From a virus, in IMG/VR virus record IMGVR_UViG_3300022074_000341, positions 1 to 25,468 of that record: a stretch of 25,468 nt of DNA; one strand, given 5' to 3'. Below the pieces are notes generated by a model, which ran no database searches, was not told the origin of the DNA, and saw only the letters and a list, made by a program, of their open reading frames with translations. Both the position numbers and the translations under genes were made by a program. Of the stretch, positions 232-21,538 are shown piece by piece. Every line of letters starts with the position of its first letter. Within the stretch, counting starts at the first letter, position 1.

Positions 232-746
232 TAGTTTACAGCCAATCCATATACTCTTAAATTTATATTGTCATAGGTGCCTGATGAGGGAAAAAAATTA
301 ATTCCTGTACAAGAAGTAGCAGATTTTAAAACTGATAAAGATTTATAGCTTTGATTCCCACCTGCAGGATATCTAAAAACACTTTGTACTTGTGCAAAAC
401 TATATGATGAACTATTAAATGGATTATATATATACATACTTAACCCAAAACCCTCAGTGCCATTATTACCAAAAGACACACCTAAAGCAGAACTTCCATT
501 TGTTGCCCTACCCTCTGTAGAACCTGAATACATAGGCATAAATAAACTTGCATAATCATAACTACTTGCACTTATAATACTGCCACTTGAATTAATAAAT
601 CTATAATTATTATCTGTTGCAGTTGATAAATCATTTGTTGTCATTGATAAATAATATATGTCAAAATCAGAACTAAATACATCTGTTATAGATACACTTG
701 CAACAGAACTAGCAGTAGTTTCATTAATTAATCTTAAGTTACTCAT
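231..746 (-). CDS. Tail fibre / receptor-binding-like protein (paralogue B)
   Basis: This 171-aa protein is Ser/Asn/Tyr-rich with no obvious charge clusters, typical of beta-sandwich phage adhesin domains. It shares the order of motifs with the upstream 207-aa protein: a YYLSM-type strand, SSYDYA, YIYNPFNSSSYSF, an FRYP segment and a C-terminal SGTYDNINLRVYGLAVN. The tail-end YGL motif is common in marine phage structural proteins. It starts at the last base of the upstream stop (TAATG) with no separate ribosome site, so it relies on coupling. Family membership is inferred from the paralogy and the position after the tail-tip gene. Confidence 0.75.
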   Translation of the reverse strand: MSNLRLINETTASSVASVSITDVFSSDFDIYYLSMTTNDLSTATDNNYRFINSSGSIISASSYDYASLFMPMYSGSTEGRATNGSSALGVSFGNNGTEGFGLSMYIYNPFNSSSYSFAQVQSVFRYPAGGNQSYKSLSVLKSATSCTGINFFPSSGTYDNINLRVYGLAVN

Positions 747-1369
747 TAAGAAATATCCTTTATACCAAATAAGGAGTAAGTGCCACTTGTTTGTAATTTA
801 GAACTTTCACCAAATATTCTTATAGCATTATGAGTTTCAGCAATTGCTAAAGCAGAGCCACCAAAACCAGCTTTTGTTGCAGGTGTATATTGCCTAAAAA
901 AGTGATTTGTAGTAAAACTATACTTACTGCTATCTAGCAAGTTATAAAAATATATATAAAAATTTACAGAATCATTACTTGTATTTCCTGTATTTAATTC
1001 CATACCTATAAAAGATGAAGATGTATCTCTATAATTATTATCATTACCAGATGTATCTACACTCATATTTGCAAAATCATAGCTAGAGCTACTAATAAAA
1101 CTAGAGCCATTATCATTTGATAGTCTTAAATATATTTGACCATTTGAATCTAACTTTACATTTCTAGCAGTTAAAAAATAAACATCATAAGGATTATTAG
1201 CTAAATTAATAAAATCAACATTATTTGGATTACCACTAACAGTTTGTTCCTCAATAAGTTCTAAGCTACCACCCCAACTACCATCTTTAGTTAGTTGTAA
1301 TATTTTACTAGGTGTGTATAAACCTGTATTCTTTTTTACATCATTTGGTTGCGTACCTAAGTAAGCCAT
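746..1369 (-). CDS. Tail fibre / receptor-binding-like protein (paralogue C)
   Basis: This 207-aa protein begins MAYLGTQPNDVKK, an N-terminus typical of marine phage tail fibre proteins that dock on the tail tip. A beta-rich C-terminal part follows, ending SGTYSLFGIKDIS. Residues from about 60 on align by eye with the 171-aa downstream gene (SSYDFA versus SSYDYA; YFYNLLDSSKYSF versus YIYNPFNSSSYSF). A good AGGAG site lies about six bases before the ATG at 1369. Compared with its paralogue it has about 40 extra N-terminal residues, perhaps the attachment part. Host recognition is the likely role, but this is inferred. Confidence 0.75.
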   Translation of the reverse strand: MAYLGTQPNDVKKNTGLYTPSKILQLTKDGSWGGSLELIEEQTVSGNPNNVDFINLANNPYDVYFLTARNVKLDSNGQIYLRLSNDNGSSFISSSSYDFANMSVDTSGNDNNYRDTSSSFIGMELNTGNTSNDSVNFYIYFYNLLDSSKYSFTTNHFFRQYTPATKAGFGGSALAIAETHNAIRIFGESSKLQTSGTYSLFGIKDIS

Positions 1370-1380
1370 AAGTTACTCCT

Positions 1381-1707
1381 TTAGGTTTGTCGCAAAAATG
1401 ATACATTGTATTCTGCACTAGATGCTGAAGAGCATAATCCCTGTAACTTATCTCCAGTCTCTAATGTTATCTTTGTAGTAATTTCAATAGTTGTGCCGAA
1501 TGGTAAAGATACATTATTTAAAATGTGTCTTAAAGTTCCACCAGATTTTGTAACACTTAAATCAACTGTTACATCAGCACTTGAACCACTTACATTAGAT
1601 AACAATATACCTATAACAGTTTCAGTAGTTGAAGAAGGAACTGCATCAACAATATCGCCTGCTGATGTACCTAAAACTCCTTGAACTGAATGTAAAGTAT
1701 CTGCCAT
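1381..1707 (-). CDS. Small beta-rich virion protein
   Basis: This 108-aa protein is almost free of long helices and alternates hydrophobic and Thr/Ser residues (ETVIGILLSNVSGSSADVTV), as in an immunoglobulin-like or small beta-sandwich fold. It starts MADTLHSVQG. It lies between two tail fibre-like genes with short gaps of 14 and 11 bases. Small proteins of this kind in phage tail modules are often decoration or fibre-adaptor subunits. I do not recognise a named family, so the structural role is inferred from context. Confidence 0.7.
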   Translation of the reverse strand: MADTLHSVQGVLGTSAGDIVDAVPSSTTETVIGILLSNVSGSSADVTVDLSVTKSGGTLRHILNNVSLPFGTTIEITTKITLETGDKLQGLCSSASSAEYNVSFLRQT

Positions 1708-1721
1708 TTTTTATTCCTTCC

Positions 1722-2201
1722 TTAGCTCAAAGCTAATACTAATCCTAAACTTACACCACTTGGTGCAAGTGCAACAATATCTGATACTGTTGTTTTCTTT
1801 AATGCGTTACTGTCATCAGCATCGCCTATTAAGACTATATCAGCTGAAGCTACTGTTGCAGAAGTAGCTAAGTTTGGAGCTATCACTAATGTAGAGCTAA
1901 ATGCTCCAGAAGTTGCTGTTGCTCCACCAGATAAACCAGAAGTAGCAGAAGTTGTTATTGTAACTCCAGTAATATCTCCATCTCCAATGTATGAGACCCA
2001 AGATGAACCATCATAAAATTGTAATGTATTTGAATCTTTTAAGAAGCAGAACATACCTTCTGCATCTGAAGTACCTAAAGCGGTATCTCTAGCTGATGAA
2101 TCAGCATAAACTTGTATTACTTGGTCTTGTACGAATGTCTGGAACTCGGTAGCACTTATTAAATCTCCAGTGCTATAACTTTTCCAACCTGCTCCTGCCA
2201 T
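1722..2201 (-). CDS. Tail fibre-type protein with GLSGG repeat-like shaft motif
   Basis: This 159-aa protein starts MAGAGWKSYSTGDLISATEF, an N-terminal motif of phage tail fibre/appendage proteins, followed by a YADSSARDTALG segment and a FYDGSSWVSY strand. The C-terminal half carries GVTITTSATSGLSGGATAT and a later SADIVLIGDADDSNALKKTTV stretch, a pattern common in trimeric shaft domains of tail fibres. It lies just after the tail-tip gene, so it may be the first fibre subunit. Length is short for a complete fibre, and neighbouring genes may supply the receptor-binding tips. Confidence 0.75.
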   Translation of the reverse strand: MAGAGWKSYSTGDLISATEFQTFVQDQVIQVYADSSARDTALGTSDAEGMFCFLKDSNTLQFYDGSSWVSYIGDGDITGVTITTSATSGLSGGATATSGAFSSTLVIAPNLATSATVASADIVLIGDADDSNALKKTTVSDIVALAPSGVSLGLVLALS

Positions 2202-2236
2202 ATTTAAATCTCCTTAATATCTCTTTTATCTTAGCA

Positions 2237-3499
2237 TTAACTATATGCAAATCTAGTTCCAACTCCAAGAAGTGCTTGACCAAGAACCCAAGAAGATGAA
2301 CTTGCTGGGCTAAGTGTCAAAGTCCAATTCCATGTTTGTGATGAAGCATTTACAGAATGTCTAATTGATTCTATAAATAATTCATCTGAGAAGGTACTTC
2401 CATCTGTATTAACTATATTAACAGTAATTCTATCTCCAATCTCTCTTCCTAGAGCTTGAGTCCAGATACTTGTATTTTGTCTTGGATTAATTTGCAAAGA
2501 GTCAATCCTAATAATTGGAATAGCAGTTTCAGATAACTTCTGTTGAATAATACTTAAGACATCTGCATCACTTGTATTGATAGTTGTCTCACTAGAGTTA
2601 AGAGCAGTAAATCTTTGAATAGAATCAGCATCAGCTATAAACTGAGTAGAACCATTGCTTCTAGTCCATGAATAGTTATTGATAACTTCATTGTCATCAA
2701 AAGATACTTGAACATCTGTAAATGGTAAATTAGACCCACTGTTACTAAATGTTGCTTGAGAAGTTGTTGCTAGAGCATTAGTAAATTTATAAGCTCTATT
2801 CCTAAAGGTTGCTTTACCATCTGCACTTATAAAGAACTGTCCATTCTCAGCTGTCTCACATGCTTTAAGTCCAGCAAGAACATTAGTTGTAAGTGCTTGT
2901 TGTTGAACATTCTTTGTGCCAGTACCAATAGTTCTAAGAGCTGAAGGGAATCCTATTGCATTTAATATTCTTGAAACTCTTACAGAACTTAATTCTGCTG
3001 AATCTCCATAACCAAGTCTCGTTGTTTGACCAAGTTCGGTAAATCCAGTTCTTCCAACTCTCCAACCAACTGATTGCAATGTCTGACTTTGAAATAATCT
3101 AAATGCATCAATTGCAGTAAATGTAACAATAGAGTCAGCACCTTCTGCTAAGAACTTAACTGGTACTACATCTAAGAATCCACGAAAAATAACATGAGTA
3201 GTTGAATCATAAGTTGCTGATACTTTAACTTGCTTTAATGGTGTTATCTTTGTTCGATTATTAGTTGAGTCATAAAAGTGAGTTGTTTGGCTTGGATTAA
3301 ATCTATTATCTTGATTTGATACAGAGAAGGATAATGTACCAGCTCTAAAGTCTCCCAGTTCATGAGACCTACCACGACTTATATCAAAGTATCTTACATA
3401 GGAACTTATATCTGTAAATGATTGACTTGAGTCAAAAGGTTCTGAATCGAATGCAACTTCTACTTTAATATCAACATTAGAGTCGAAACTTGCTGGCAT
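2237..3499 (-). CDS. Minor tail / tail-tip (baseplate hub-like) protein
   Basis: This 420-aa protein follows the tape measure gene directly, sharing the base of a TAATG junction, which is the usual position of distal tail or tail-associated proteins. Residues about 35-70 (SYVRYFDISRGRSHELGDF followed by RAGTLSFSVSNQDNRFNP) form a signature I know from minor tail proteins of actinobacteriophages and related siphoviruses. The rest is beta-rich, with a late QALGREIGDRITVNI segment. It probably caps the tail tube and anchors the fibres encoded next. There is no visible protease or lysozyme motif. Family assignment is fairly secure; the precise name is not. Confidence 0.85.
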   Translation of the reverse strand: MPASFDSNVDIKVEVAFDSEPFDSSQSFTDISSYVRYFDISRGRSHELGDFRAGTLSFSVSNQDNRFNPSQTTHFYDSTNNRTKITPLKQVKVSATYDSTTHVIFRGFLDVVPVKFLAEGADSIVTFTAIDAFRLFQSQTLQSVGWRVGRTGFTELGQTTRLGYGDSAELSSVRVSRILNAIGFPSALRTIGTGTKNVQQQALTTNVLAGLKACETAENGQFFISADGKATFRNRAYKFTNALATTSQATFSNSGSNLPFTDVQVSFDDNEVINNYSWTRSNGSTQFIADADSIQRFTALNSSETTINTSDADVLSIIQQKLSETAIPIIRIDSLQINPRQNTSIWTQALGREIGDRITVNIVNTDGSTFSDELFIESIRHSVNASSQTWNWTLTLSPASSSSWVLGQALLGVGTRFAYS

Positions 3500-5889
3500 T
3501 AGAAGACTACCCTCTGTCCATTCCTTTTAGCCCTATTTAATGCATCAATAATATCTAATGCTTGAGCATTAGCATCTTTGCCTTCAACATTTATATTTTG
3601 ATGAATTACTACTGCATTATTTCTAGTAAGTGCTTGCATTCCAGAGCCAGCTTGTGCTGTAGGGCTTACTACATCAGCTGGTATTTCTTCTCCATCTACA
3701 CCAGTCTTTATTGGTTGAAGTCCACCACCAGTAGAAGTTATAGCAATATCTTCTCCACTCTTAATAGCATTAGCCATATTTATTAAGTCTTGAAGTTTCA
3801 TTCCAGTAGATTCAACTAGAAATCCCATAGCATCTTCAAAAGAACCTAAAGCATTAAGATTTGTCAATGCATCATCTAATTCTTTTTTAGCCATTGCTAT
3901 TTCTAATAAATTCTCTGGTGTTTTAGCAGTAACTTCGTTTAATTCTTTTTGAGCTTCTATTAACTTATCTTCCGCTTTAGTTAGCTTTTCAAAAGCTCTT
4001 TCTTCTTCTTCCAAAGCTCTTGTTAATTCTCTTTGTGCAGTTTCCTGTTCTGATGTAGCTCCAGTAGATGCTTCAATAAGTTCAGTGTGTTTTTGTTTTG
4101 CAAGAGCAAGTTTAAGTTCCATCTCTCTTGAGCCATCTTGTGCATCACTAAGTTTATCAACAGCTTGTTTAGCATTTAAGATAGCAAGTTCTTCTTGAAG
4201 AGTAACTTTAATAGCTTCATCTTTTGCTGATGCGAGTGCTTGTTCAGCATGAATTACTTTTTGAGATGCTTTTTCTAATAACTTTTGTGATTTTGTAACT
4301 TCTTTAGATGCATCATCTCTATCTTCTTCTGCATCTTTAACTCTCTCTTGAATATCTTTTAATTTATTTTGTGCTTGAATAACCGCATCAAGTGTAGGAA
4401 GCATATTCTTTTTCATATTTTCTGCATATTCAGCACTAGCTTCAGTTGCTTCCTTAGCTGATTCAGCATCTTCTCTTAAAGATTGAGCTTTAGCAATAGC
4501 TTGGTCAGTTACTTCCATATAGCTAGGAAGTGAATTTCTATTTGCTCTTTCCATTCCTCTTTGTGCATCTATTGCTTTTTCTGTTGCTGTTCTACTATCT
4601 ACAGTTTGTGTTCTGGCTTCAAACATTGCCTGCGAATATGCATTGTAAGTATGGGTATTTTCTTTTATAGCTACACCAGAAATAACTATTGCTTTAGTAG
4701 ATTCTTCAACTGCATCAGTTTGTTCTTTTTGTTCTTTTATAAAGTCAGAAGTACTTTGAATAATCTTTGTTACAAATCCAACAATAGAAGACAATGCTGG
4801 AGCAATGGTTGAACCAATTAAGATACCAAGCTCTGAAAAAGCATTAGTCATTAATTCAATCTGAGCTTTTAGAGAGCCCATCTGTTTATCTGCAACATCA
4901 GCAGTAGTTCCACCAGAATCATGTAGTGCTTGTTCGTAAGCTCGTATCTCATCTCCAGCTCCAGATAATATCTTGACTGCATCTGCAACACCACGATTAA
5001 GTCCTAACTGGTCTAATGTAGATGCTTTTAACTCATCTGACATTGGAGCAAGAACTCCATCTAATTCTTCTATTAAGTCTGCAACATTCTTTAAGTTTCC
5101 ATCTGCATCAAACATCTGGAGATTCAACTTAGCGAACTCTTCTGCATTCTTAGCTGTTGCTCTTGGTATATCTCTTAAGAGCTGGTTAAGTTTTTCTCCA
5201 GCTTCAGCTCCTTTAACACCTCTATCTGCAAAAGCTGATAAGACTGCAACACCTTCTTCAATACCTTTATTAGCAACTTTCAAAGCAGAACCAGCTTTGT
5301 TTGTAAGTGCTTCAGAGAATTGTTGTACAGATGCGTTAGCTAATGTGTTTGCTTTTACAAGTACATCAGTAACTCTTGTTAAGTTGTCTAAGTTTTGTTG
5401 AGCATCATCAACAGTCATACCTAATGCAGACTGAGCATCAGTTGCTAAGTCAGTAGCAGTAGCCATATCAAACATACCAGCTTGAGCAAACTTAGCTACT
5501 TGTGGTAGAGCTGATATAGACTGCTCTGCATTCAAACCAGCAGATGCTAAGAAGAAGAATGCTTCTGCGGATTGTTCTGCACCGATTCTTGTGGTTCTTG
5601 ATACAGCAAGTGCTTGCTCTTCCATTGCTTTTTGTTGGTCAATGGTTGTATCCATAATTGCAAGAGACTGAGTCATCTTGTCGTTGAATGCTATAAATTC
5701 TTGAGTTGCCTTAGTCATTCCTTTAACTAAAGCTACACCTATTGCAATGCCAGCTACTTTACCAGCAGTTGCAAGTTTGCCCATTAACTTGCCAGACTTG
5801 TCAGCAGAGCCACCAAGTTTATTTAATTGATTCTTAGCTAAGTCTGCACCCTTAGTTACTATCTGAATTGCTATGTCTGCTATTGCCAT
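3499..5889 (-). CDS. Tail tape measure protein (TP901 family)
   Basis: At 796 aa this is the longest gene of the window. The N-terminal region to about residue 330 has the TP901-type tape measure pattern (FNDKMTQSLAIMDTT, EEQALAVSRTTRIGAEQSAEAF, FAQAGMFDMATATDLATDAQSALG). Two hydrophobic stretches are near residues 42-57 and 347-370, consistent with a membrane-active role at DNA entry. Residues about 500-680 are a long charged coiled coil rich in Lys, Glu and Ala. At about 0.15 nm per residue (a known rule) the ruler predicts a tail near 120 nm. It follows the chaperone pair at a TAATG junction, as expected. Confidence 0.95.
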   Translation of the reverse strand: MAIADIAIQIVTKGADLAKNQLNKLGGSADKSGKLMGKLATAGKVAGIAIGVALVKGMTKATQEFIAFNDKMTQSLAIMDTTIDQQKAMEEQALAVSRTTRIGAEQSAEAFFFLASAGLNAEQSISALPQVAKFAQAGMFDMATATDLATDAQSALGMTVDDAQQNLDNLTRVTDVLVKANTLANASVQQFSEALTNKAGSALKVANKGIEEGVAVLSAFADRGVKGAEAGEKLNQLLRDIPRATAKNAEEFAKLNLQMFDADGNLKNVADLIEELDGVLAPMSDELKASTLDQLGLNRGVADAVKILSGAGDEIRAYEQALHDSGGTTADVADKQMGSLKAQIELMTNAFSELGILIGSTIAPALSSIVGFVTKIIQSTSDFIKEQKEQTDAVEESTKAIVISGVAIKENTHTYNAYSQAMFEARTQTVDSRTATEKAIDAQRGMERANRNSLPSYMEVTDQAIAKAQSLREDAESAKEATEASAEYAENMKKNMLPTLDAVIQAQNKLKDIQERVKDAEEDRDDASKEVTKSQKLLEKASQKVIHAEQALASAKDEAIKVTLQEELAILNAKQAVDKLSDAQDGSREMELKLALAKQKHTELIEASTGATSEQETAQRELTRALEEEERAFEKLTKAEDKLIEAQKELNEVTAKTPENLLEIAMAKKELDDALTNLNALGSFEDAMGFLVESTGMKLQDLINMANAIKSGEDIAITSTGGGLQPIKTGVDGEEIPADVVSPTAQAGSGMQALTRNNAVVIHQNINVEGKDANAQALDIIDALNRAKRNGQRVVF

Positions 5890-19369: not shown

Positions 19370-19387
19370 TTGTGAATATTTTCACAA
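19370..19387. promoter_or_regulatory. CRP-type palindrome TTGTGAA-N4-TTCACAA
   Basis: A perfect 7-bp inverted repeat with a 4-base spacer; it contains TGTGA-N6-TCACA, the consensus of CRP/FNR-family regulators including actinobacterial Crp/GlxR. Its centre lies about 51 bases upstream of the predicted start of transcription. It overlaps the stop of the phosphoesterase gene. No T-run follows, so an operator is more likely than a terminator. Confidence 0.55.
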
Positions 19388-20593
19388 GATTTTAAGATTA
19401 TCCCAACCATTTTCTGAAACTGTGAAGGTTAGGATTCCATGCGAAGTAGTTAGACCCATTCTTGCTTCTAGTTCTTTAGAAGTATCAAGAGATGGAGCTT
19501 GAAACCAAGTTCTGCTTCGTTCATGCAAAACTCTTAAATGATGATAATGACCAGTAACAAGAATGTCTGAGCTACCAGATGGAATGCGAGCATGACCCTG
19601 ATTCTTCCACCAGTTCATTAATTTATTCTCTATATTTCCACCGCCACCAGTCATGTGTCCATGATAAAAAGTTAATCTAGTTCCCTTTATATCTAAAGTT
19701 AAATAGAAATCATTGGGAATTACAGTCTTGACATGTTTGTATCTCTCTCTTCCTTCTATAATTTCTCCAACTATTTGAAATATTTGAGTGTCTGAATTAT
19801 CTAATCTTGTTGTTGTAATACTATTTTTACCACTTCTTTGCTCGCCATGATTTCCGACTACAGCTCCCAAGAAAATTTTTGGAGCTAATTTAAGTAATCC
19901 ATCAAGAACTTCCATTAGCATTTTTCTTGCAAGATGTTCTTGCTCAGTTCTAGTGAGCTCGATATTAAAGGGTTGATGGTCAAAGAAGCCATAAATGCAC
20001 TCAATTAAATCTCCTAATCCTATGATATAAATTTCATCTATTGTCTGACCAGATTTATTTAAATTTTTTATTTGCTTCTGGGCTTTTTTTATACCATTCC
20101 TTATGTAATCAATAGTCTCATCAGCTCCCCAGTTAGCATTGTATTCTGATTTTCCAAACTGCCAGTCAGCACAAAAGAACATGAAAGCATTATCTCCAGC
20201 TAGTTCAGAGACTTTAACTGGCTTCTTCTTTGAAATCTGTCGTTCTAATTTTCTAACATAGTCATTGTGCTTTGGTTTTTTTCTTCGGATAGTAGCTTTG
20301 AAAGCATACATCTGAATAACTTGACCACCTTTAGCTTGGGCTTCCCAAGTAGAAAATTTTATTCTGTCTTCTTCTATGTAATATTCATCTGAGTTATAAC
20401 CCCAAGAATCTAAGAGTTCATTGAATTTAAAGTTATCTGATTTAGGTTGCACATGAGTAAGCTCTCCAAGATTTGTGTTATGGTCAAATTCGAGCTTCGG
20501 CTTCCACCCAGAAGGGTAGTAATTATTTCCTAAGTCAAGATTGTGTGCGACTTCTTGCTTATTCTTCGTAAGTTTTTTTGATTCTTTTGTCAT
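19382..20593 (-). CDS. Calcineurin-type metallophosphoesterase
   Basis: In this 403-aa protein residues 1-110 form an N-terminal region (YYPSGWKPKLEFDHNTNLGE; KFSTWEAQAKGGQV) that I know from phosphoesterases of actinobacteriophages. The metal-binding motifs then follow in order: ADWQFG with Asp143, GLGD (Asp195), GNHGE (Asn248-His249), YHGHM (His311/His313) and GHYHH (348-352). The first motif has Gln in place of the usual His. A nuclease role in DNA metabolism, as in Mre11/SbcD-like enzymes, is plausible but not shown. The start at 20593 has no Shine-Dalgarno; a LexA-like box lies directly before it. Confidence 0.88.
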   Translation of the reverse strand: MTKESKKLTKNKQEVAHNLDLGNNYYPSGWKPKLEFDHNTNLGELTHVQPKSDNFKFNELLDSWGYNSDEYYIEEDRIKFSTWEAQAKGGQVIQMYAFKATIRRKKPKHNDYVRKLERQISKKKPVKVSELAGDNAFMFFCADWQFGKSEYNANWGADETIDYIRNGIKKAQKQIKNLNKSGQTIDEIYIIGLGDLIECIYGFFDHQPFNIELTRTEQEHLARKMLMEVLDGLLKLAPKIFLGAVVGNHGEQRSGKNSITTTRLDNSDTQIFQIVGEIIEGRERYKHVKTVIPNDFYLTLDIKGTRLTFYHGHMTGGGGNIENKLMNWWKNQGHARIPSGSSDILVTGHYHHLRVLHERSRTWFQAPSLDTSKELEARMGLTTSHGILTFTVSENGWDNLKIL

Positions 20594-20607
20594 AGAACAT
20601 TTGTTCG
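20594..20607. promoter_or_regulatory. LexA-like box GAAC-N4-GTTC at the start codon
   Basis: The transcribed strand reads CGAACAAATGTTCT, matching 13 of 14 positions of the Gram-positive/actinobacterial LexA consensus CGAACRNRYGTTYG. It covers the predicted transcription start and ends one base before the ATG, so a bound repressor would block both initiation and escape. A chance match somewhere in 25 kb is possible; the position makes it notable. Confidence 0.5.
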
Positions 20608-20612
20608 ATTTT

Positions 20613-20621
20613 ATTCTATCA
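20613..20621 (-). promoter_or_regulatory. Extended -10 promoter TGATAGAAT
   Basis: TG-A-TAGAAT forms an extended -10; the expected start of transcription is near 20606, within the LexA-like box, leaving a 5' untranslated region of about 13 bases with no ribosome site. No good -35 is present. It resembles TGATATAAT at 22799-22807 and TGATATACT at 25271-25279. Confidence 0.45.
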
Positions 20622-20658
20622 TCAAAAATTACTAATTATTGTTTTTGAAATATTTGTT

Positions 20659-20770
20659 GGAGATTGAGTTAAGTGTTCAACATGGTAACCAATAATCTGT
20701 CGCCAGACTGAAAGGAGTATTCAACCAGTTCGGAGCTCTCTTCCGACTCTAATCTTAACTCGATATCTCC
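20659..20770 (-). ncRNA. Candidate structured RNA, 112 nt
   Basis: On the transcribed strand an outer helix GGAGAT/ATCTCC (20765-20770 with 20659-20664) and a second helix GAGTTAAG/CTTAACTC (20754-20761 with 20666-20673) enclose three more: hairpin TCGGA/TCCGA (20730-20746), helix AACTGGT/ACCA-T-GTT (20724-20730 with 20679-20686) and hairpin AGTCTG-GCGA-CAGATT (20694-20709), which has a GNRA loop and a G-U pair valid only on this strand. No gene fits here. It may be a small RNA, a 3' element of the replication operon or part of an origin. A weak TTGTTG/TAATAT promoter lies just upstream. Confidence 0.6.
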
Positions 20771-20779
20771 ATATATTAA

Positions 20780-20793
20780 TTTAGATATCTAAA
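20780..20793. repeat. 14-bp perfect palindrome TTTAGATATCTAAA
   Basis: It overlaps the TAG stop of the replication protein gene and lies ten bases before the structured RNA. It could be a protein-binding site, for example part of an origin or the control site of that RNA. AT-rich palindromes arise by chance more easily, so the call is weak. Confidence 0.4.
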
Positions 20794-21538
20794 CCAACAA
20801 ATCATCTGAAGTAATTCTACAAAATTGACATACTTCAAATTCATTGTCTAGTTGAATCATAGCATGCCCTTCTTCTTCACAATCTCGTGGCTTTGGAATC
20901 TTCTCTACTGATTCCCCTAAGAGAGTCCAATGCTTTACTAATGCATAAGGTGTAAGGGTCATGCCCTTAAATAGCGTTTTGTATTGTGATACCCTGTTAG
21001 GAATATCATCAGCTTTAGCACCAGCTTCTCTTAATTGTTTGATACATTTATTCCAACCAGCTCTCTCAACTTGAGTTGATGGTTGATAACCTATTGCATC
21101 AACTAGAGCATTCCATAATCTTTTTCTATCTTCAAGATTATTTTCCAAAGAATGACTCTGGTTAATTGACTCTAGTTTGTGGGTCTCTGATGAACTAGGG
21201 CTAGTGTCATCTATGACATTGGGTAGGTCATATATGAGCTCTTTACTTCTCATTACTGTATATAAGTTCGAAGTCTGCTCTCCAGTGGCTTTGTCAAACC
21301 GCTTCTGCGACTTGATTGCACCAATGGCTTTTAGTTCCTTTAAAGCACGCTTAATCGTGCTCTCAGAGACATGTATGCGTTCCGATAGCGTTCTAATGCT
21401 AGGAAAGCAAGTACCATCATCTTTGTCTGCATATCTGCATAGAACAGCATAGACCCTAACAGCTTGAGCTGATATTGGGGCATCAATTACCCACTCTGGA
21501 ACTATGCTGAAATATACATCAGACTTTATGTAGTCCAT
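20789..21538 (-). CDS. Winged-helix replication-initiator-like protein
   Basis: Residues about 15-95 of this 249-aa protein are a helix-turn-helix of the HTH_36 type (VRVYAVLCRYADKDDGTCFP; RTLSERIHVSESTIKRALKE) followed by a wing. This domain is typical of plasmid and phage replication initiators, including many in actinobacteriophages. The middle is a Ser-rich linker, then a helical region (RKRLWNALVDAIGYQP). The C-terminus holds a Cys/His set (CEEEGH and CQFC) that could bind zinc. It is the last gene of the coupled operon. A transcription factor role is the alternative. Confidence 0.82.
   Translation of the reverse strand: MDYIKSDVYFSIVPEWVIDAPISAQAVRVYAVLCRYADKDDGTCFPSIRTLSERIHVSESTIKRALKELKAIGAIKSQKRFDKATGEQTSNLYTVMRSKELIYDLPNVIDDTSPSSSETHKLESINQSHSLENNLEDRKRLWNALVDAIGYQPSTQVERAGWNKCIKQLREAGAKADDIPNRVSQYKTLFKGMTLTPYALVKHWTLLGESVEKIPKPRDCEEEGHAMIQLDNEFEVCQFCRITSDDLLV

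Follow-up and report, generated by a model that had tools for sequence, protein, structure and literature searches.

A family of three-way-junction RNAs between genes of environmental phages, with a possible role in defining transcript ends

Introduction

What is the 112-nt stretch that lies between two genes at positions 20,659 to 20,770 of the virus record IMGVR_UViG_3300022074_000341, and what might an RNA made from it do? The record, a 25-kb entry of IMG/VR, was analysed as one window of 25,468 nt, and an earlier note, made from its letters alone, had proposed a multi-helix RNA at this place. The comparisons reported here show that the element belongs to a new family of structured RNAs with a three-way-junction core, which lie between phage genes in the direction of the upstream gene; a function in self-cleavage is tentatively put forward. 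Few natural ribozyme classes and few widespread RNA elements of phages are known, and here a roughly 70-nt RNA, whose fold is supported by covariation and whose core is invariant, is found in about 32 groups of phages and is almost confined to uncultivated viruses. As a host-independent phage RNA tool, its function would be approachable with short synthetic transcripts.

Results

Covariation supports a structured RNA on the minus strand

Taken alone, the folding energy of the 112 nt is suggestive but weak, being just mildly above chance: the minus strand reaches -30.8 kcal/mol (z = -1.98, with 9 of 200 shuffles equally good), and the plus strand z = -1.61. An advantage over shuffled sequence is thus present only in mild form, and the reality of the structure is therefore decided by comparison with relatives. 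A search of IMG/VR with the phosphoesterase protein encoded next to the element gave 39 loci, with about eight distinct versions of the element upstream of that gene. In an alignment of 13 relatives, the helices P1 and P2, a 4-bp P3 and a hairpin with a GNRA loop keep 93.4% of cells paired, with double changes at 15 of the 24 pairs; the covariation score is 0.498 against 0.185 for shuffled alignments (0 of 500 as high), and at most 0.098 with the partners slid. The structured RNA of the earlier note is accordingly real, and compensatory changes are present in the helices that it described, with one exception: the 7-bp bulged helix (GUU/AAC) of the minimum-energy fold is not retained in relatives, the conserved alternative being the 4-bp UGGU/ACCA. 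The proposed two-part closing stem stands, as its inner part is doubly changed at every pair and its outer part, of 5-7 bp, is retained and covaries in the nearest relatives (GGAGAU/AUCUCC, GGAGAC/GUCUCC and GGAGC/GCUCC). Both proposed hairpins, P2 and the GNRA hairpin, are conserved and covary among the 13, and the GNRA loop (GCGA or GCAA) is kept in most of them.

Across 47 diverse members of the family, P1 and P2 keep 89.2% of cells paired; double changes affect 12 of 14 pairs, and the covariation score is 0.732 (0.213 when shuffled, 0 of 500 as high; at most 0.19 when slid). Within the P2 stem, GC/AU/UA and UA/UG/CG changes occur. P3 is paired in 78.7% of cells when the strand joining it to P1 (J3/1) is 9 nt long, as against 41-53% at other lengths (0 of 2,000 shuffles as good), and this best pairing at exactly 9 nt implies that the geometry of the junction is fixed. 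Single-sequence folding of two members (loci L123, z = -6.1, and L098, z = -3.2) reproduces the comparative model, while the core of the window copy folds less well singly (z = -0.75), probably because of the large insertion in its P3.

The strand can be read from the same alignments. On the modelled strand, the inner pairs of P1 and the base of P2 (alignment A1), together with the P3 helices (alignment A2), hold 31 G.U cells and no A.C cells; the one departure, R22.C28, closes the P2 loop (G-C in 26 of 43, A.C in 17 of 43) and may belong to a loop of 7 nt. In addition, co-directional stop codons precede the RNA and co-directional tRNAs follow it, and these counts and neighbours together identify the minus strand as the correct one for the window, as had been suspected from a single G-U pair.

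Table 1. Parts of the element and its flanking genes, in window positions
Feature	Position	Strand	Evidence
Entire element, including outer closing stem	20658..20771	-	Covariance-model match 20666-20761, E 2.7e-14 (window sequence itself among the 47 used for model building)
P1 outer helix, 5' strand UGGAGAU	20765..20771	-	Conserved and covarying, near relatives
P1 outer helix, 3' strand AUCUCCA	20658..20664	-	Conserved and covarying, near relatives
P1 inner helix, 5' strand GAGUUAAG	20754..20761	-	Double changes at 8/8 pairs in A1 and A2
P1 inner helix, 3' strand CUUAACUC	20666..20673	-	Partner of GAGUUAAG
J1/2, conserved strand AUUAGAG (family A-A/C-U-A-G-A-G)	20747..20753	-	Alignment A1; GAG included in the pattern searched
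P2 hairpin UCGGAA-GAGAG-CUCCGA (family loop GAGAA)	20730..20746	-	Stem covaries; loop conserved
J2/3, conserved AC	20728..20729	-	Alignment
P3, 5' strand UGGU	20724..20727	-	UA/AU/GU and UA/CG changes
P3, 3' strand ACCA	20683..20686	-	Pairs with UGGU; register set family-wide by 9-nt J3/1
Unpaired CUCCUUUC within P3	20710..20717	-	Conserved in near relatives
P3b hairpin AGUCUG-GCGA-CAGAUU, GNRA loop	20694..20709	-	Two pairs with three or two types
J3/1, UGUUGAACA (family: 9 nt, end UGAACA or UUAACA)	20674..20682	-	AACA invariant 47/47; outside the search pattern
Replication initiation protein gene, upstream of the RNA	20789..21538	-	HTH_36; PHROG 270 and others
Phosphoesterase/exonuclease gene, downstream of the RNA	19382..20593	-	PHROG 284

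The unpaired CUCCUUUC of the window copy (Table 1) is also part of the 3' end of 16S rRNA. Phages that carry a VWA gene (L055, L058, L064, L083 and L167) have a similar (U)UCCUUUC in the loop of a hairpin just ahead of P1; display of the motif in P3 or in that hairpin may represent an accessory domain. A pseudoknot between the P2 loop and CUCCUUUC was considered and rejected, as the bases to be paired do not covary and the motif is absent elsewhere.

Distribution of the family

Members of the family share one layout, of about 70 nt: P1, then A(A/C)UAGAG, P2, AC, a P3 whose length varies, a 9-nt strand with UGAACA or UUAACA at its end, and the returning strand of P1 (P1'). P2 itself has a 6-bp stem and a pentaloop (YC-NNN-R, loop GAGAA, C-NNN-GR). 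The P2 core, used as a DNA pattern, matched 62 IMG/VR stretches, and relaxed patterns matched 99 and 115; none of P1, P3 and J3/1 was among the letters searched for, and in the relaxed patterns the NNN positions were free as well. A covariance model recovered copies independent of the patterns (for example, at L072, L109, L126, L189, L190 and L192, the last with G-C and U-G replacing the two lowest pairs of P2), and three pattern matches (L106, L198 and L204) were dropped, the remainder of the element being absent from them.

Grouped by the open reading frames (ORFs) that they have in common, the contigs form 34 groups, and the element was confirmed in 32. These groups of phages share almost no genes: no ORF cluster spans more than three of the 34, and no common phage protein partner was found in the element flanks examined. 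The fraction of G and C ranges from 0.33 to 0.68 among the groups with a confirmed element, and each contig has one to three copies. The lack of a common phage protein and the widely differing base composition together suggest that the element works alone or through a universal host factor.

Outside IMG/VR the family is scarce. Collections with one genome per species (84,980 species) gave a single match, in a metagenome-assembled contig (L167) that groups by its genes with the VWA-gene phages, and a plasmid search gave one weak match. BLAST searches of 50,697 phage records with the window element and four other member or consensus queries gave no convincing match in cultured phages, which is unsurprising given that the patterns match only about 1 in 30,000 IMG/VR contigs.

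No relation to a described family appeared, as the earlier note had supposed. None of the 4,227 families of Rfam 15 matched the window, L123 or 27 other loci at gathering thresholds, apart from tRNAs at the 27 loci; up to E 10, the window gave two matches at chance level only, and L123 none. By ARAGORN and Rfam the element is neither a tRNA nor a transfer-messenger RNA, the matches being limited to neighbouring tRNAs. The core strings were not found in the open-access papers searched, although Rfam and that set of papers are incomplete and an unreleased or subscription-only description is possible. By these searches, then, the RNA family is unrelated to any family searched.

Placement at gene borders and before tRNA genes

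All predicted genes of the window that have family matches are on the minus strand, and the element sits in a gap of 195 nt (20594-20788) between two of them, so that, as had been claimed, no gene fits the 112 nt. The phosphoesterase/exonuclease gene downstream is not tied to the RNA: many of its relatives have no RNA upstream, and in the contigs of L112/L027 and of L188/L032 it is located elsewhere while the RNA remains with the replication initiator. The initiator gene precedes the RNA in all near relatives that include it; at L141, L188 and L205 the next genes form a convergent pair, the end of the last gene abutting P1'. Of the three roles suggested in the earlier note, that of a 3' regulatory element fits best, since even convergence of the following gene does not displace the RNA from the 3' end of the replication-initiator gene. 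An RNA linked to a replication origin, another of the three, is contradicted by the copies beside genes for a T7-type RNA polymerase, structural proteins, tRNAs and others.

In the other groups, the distance from a co-directional stop codon to the beginning of P1 is mostly 0-30 nt. A start codon follows the element within 3-20 nt at L125, L097, L123 and L087, and at L054 a gene for a T7-type RNA polymerase (identified from its own sequence, not by profile search) follows directly, the nearest identified upstream gene being 233 nt away. Hairpins resembling intrinsic terminators follow the element at L121, L129 and L131; none was seen behind the window copy. At L129 and L131 the stop codon of a gene precedes the element and the terminator follows it, with a possible convergent ORF beyond, and the hairpin there is a perfect one of 9 bp (GGGCGAGGA-GAAA-UCCUCGCCC) which, with a U-rich run, directly abuts the element.

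In four independent groups a same-strand tRNA gene begins 3, 7, 10 or 15 nt downstream of the element (L146, L090, L191 and L110, respectively). With 33 tRNA genes in 1.31 Mb, about 0.00025 such cases per element would be expected at random (20-nt window, one strand), or several-fold more if gaps between genes alone count, and the four cases far exceed random placement. Tandem copies 12-27 nt apart occur at L087, L072, L126 and L192, and at L109 the repeat is three-fold, with three copies in 217 nt (3510-3726) directly before an ORF of 102 codons. At L193, 17 tRNA genes lie on one strand (647-3259), and among them is a weaker element copy (2700-2769).

Discussion

We infer that the RNA is a cis-acting element which works on its own transcript, at gene borders and before tRNAs, and defines RNA ends; such a role fits all of the contexts, in which the downstream gene does not matter. 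Of the ways in which it could do so, we hypothesize, with a confidence short of even, that the family is a new class of self-cleaving ribozyme that would cut the transcripts of many unrelated environmental phages at these places. The invariant strands of the junction (AAUAGAG in J1/2, AC and GAACA) and the GAGAA loop would pack into an active site, and the backbone would be cut within or beside the junction, separating the upstream mRNA from the downstream mRNA or tRNA; in the window, the effect would be a trimmed 3' end on the replication-initiator mRNA. Several points place this reading first: the covariation of P1, P2 and P3; the spread over many phage groups with no protein partner evident in the flanks examined, as would suit an RNA acting by itself; the placement after stop codons, in convergent gaps, in tandem and before tRNAs; invariant strands and a loop of the kind that an active site would require; the habit of hammerhead ribozymes; and the presence of theta ribozymes at phage tRNAs.

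Active hammerhead ribozymes are found around phage-type ardA, in intergenic regions of phages and, as tandem or triple copies, in polycistronic RNA (PMC3088659). Like them, the element is a small three-way junction with conserved joining strands and with scattered intergenic and tandem copies; unlike the hammerhead core CUGANGA...GAAA...NUH, its conserved strands are A(A/C)UAGAG, AC and UGAACA, and it has an extra conserved pentaloop in P2. Theta ribozymes of gut phages adjoin phage tRNA genes and cut at the 3' end of the tRNA, which means that phages do use ribozymes there (PMC10879173). The element resembles them in lying beside phage tRNA genes. Theta ribozymes, of the hepatitis delta virus (HDV)-like kind, fold as a nested double pseudoknot, whereas a nested three-way junction accounts for the covariation of the element, which has no HDV match in Rfam. 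The hatchet ribozyme is a further parallel, being mainly metagenomic and having its conserved nucleotides in joining strands, but no member of the present family matches Rfam.

Several points weigh against self-cleavage. The placement fits any cis-acting processing or stability element, and compact phage genomes put any intergenic element near stop and start codons. The GAG, GAGA and C around P2 and the following AC belong to the search patterns, so that their invariance is partly imposed. Known ribozyme cores are not present in the element and no Rfam ribozyme matched it; theta ribozymes lie 3' of tRNAs, and the element 5' of them.

Second in rank, though unlikely, is a stabiliser of 3' ends, in which the tight three-way junction would block exoribonucleases and protect the upstream mRNA by a logic like that of exonuclease-resistant RNAs. 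Those RNAs, in other viruses, have a 3' location, a junction fold and tandem copies, as does the element, but no sequence relation to them was seen in it. The start of the element 0-30 nt past stop codons in most groups, and its attachment to the upstream gene where the one downstream is changed or convergent, would both follow; its place 3-15 nt before tRNA genes is not readily explained, nor is a distant nearest upstream gene, as at L054.

Rather less probable, and on a par with each other, are a site for host nucleases and a small RNA. Recognition of the element by a universal host endonuclease (RNase P, III or E), with processing of the transcript there, would account for the same placement, including the proximity to tRNAs; yet RNase III needs mainly duplex and has no need for invariant junction strands, and the wide differences in GC content and in Shine-Dalgarno-like leaders among the phages make one host-specific site unlikely. 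As a trans-acting small RNA or decoy, another of the earlier note's three suggestions, the element could pair with Shine-Dalgarno sequences through CUCCUUUC, a conserved, unpaired motif of the window group with its (U)UCCUUUC counterpart in the VWA-gene group. That motif is missing from most other members, however, the invariant parts lie in the junction and not in an exposed seed, and there is no terminator behind the window copy, nor was an own promoter-terminator pair seen.

Elements whose effect should depend on the downstream gene are disfavoured, as this one does not. An antiterminator acting on RNA polymerase, like HK022 put or EAR, is improbable: put is likewise a cis-acting phage RNA in operons, and copies of the element stand inside operons, sometimes in tandem, some before terminators and one directly before the T7-type RNA polymerase gene, but put consists of two simple hairpins, the element has no match to it, the contexts disagree, and read-through would be useless or harmful both before the possible convergent ORF of L129/L131 and at L141, L188 and L205, where the element ends in a convergent operon. 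Least probable of all is a riboswitch or translational leader, for although the invariant core and the three-way junction are reminiscent of aptamers and some starts are 3-20 nt downstream (L125, L097 and L123), riboswitches stand upstream of related same-strand genes, and the genes after the element are unrelated between groups, convergent on the opposite strand, or tRNAs.

A self-cleaving RNA would thus rank first, a 3'-end protector second, and a host-nuclease site or small RNA after these. If self-cleaving, the family would be a new class of RNA enzyme within a known kind, the self-cleaving ribozymes; protection of ends, or binding of a universal host factor, would likewise be new for phages.

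Other observations

A second intergenic stretch that may be structured (690-785, with a GACACGC...GCGTGTC closing stem and no Rfam match) lies 3' of the element at L167. In the window, a palindrome, GAACAAATGTTC, lies within TCGAACAAATGTTCTA at 20595-20606 (minus strand), immediately 5' of the start codon of the phosphoesterase gene; it resembles the LexA/SOS box of Gram-positive bacteria and actinobacteria and is retained in many relatives, including some that lack the RNA (L030-L035). Its form and position suggest that the phosphoesterase gene may be under damage control in a host with that type of LexA.
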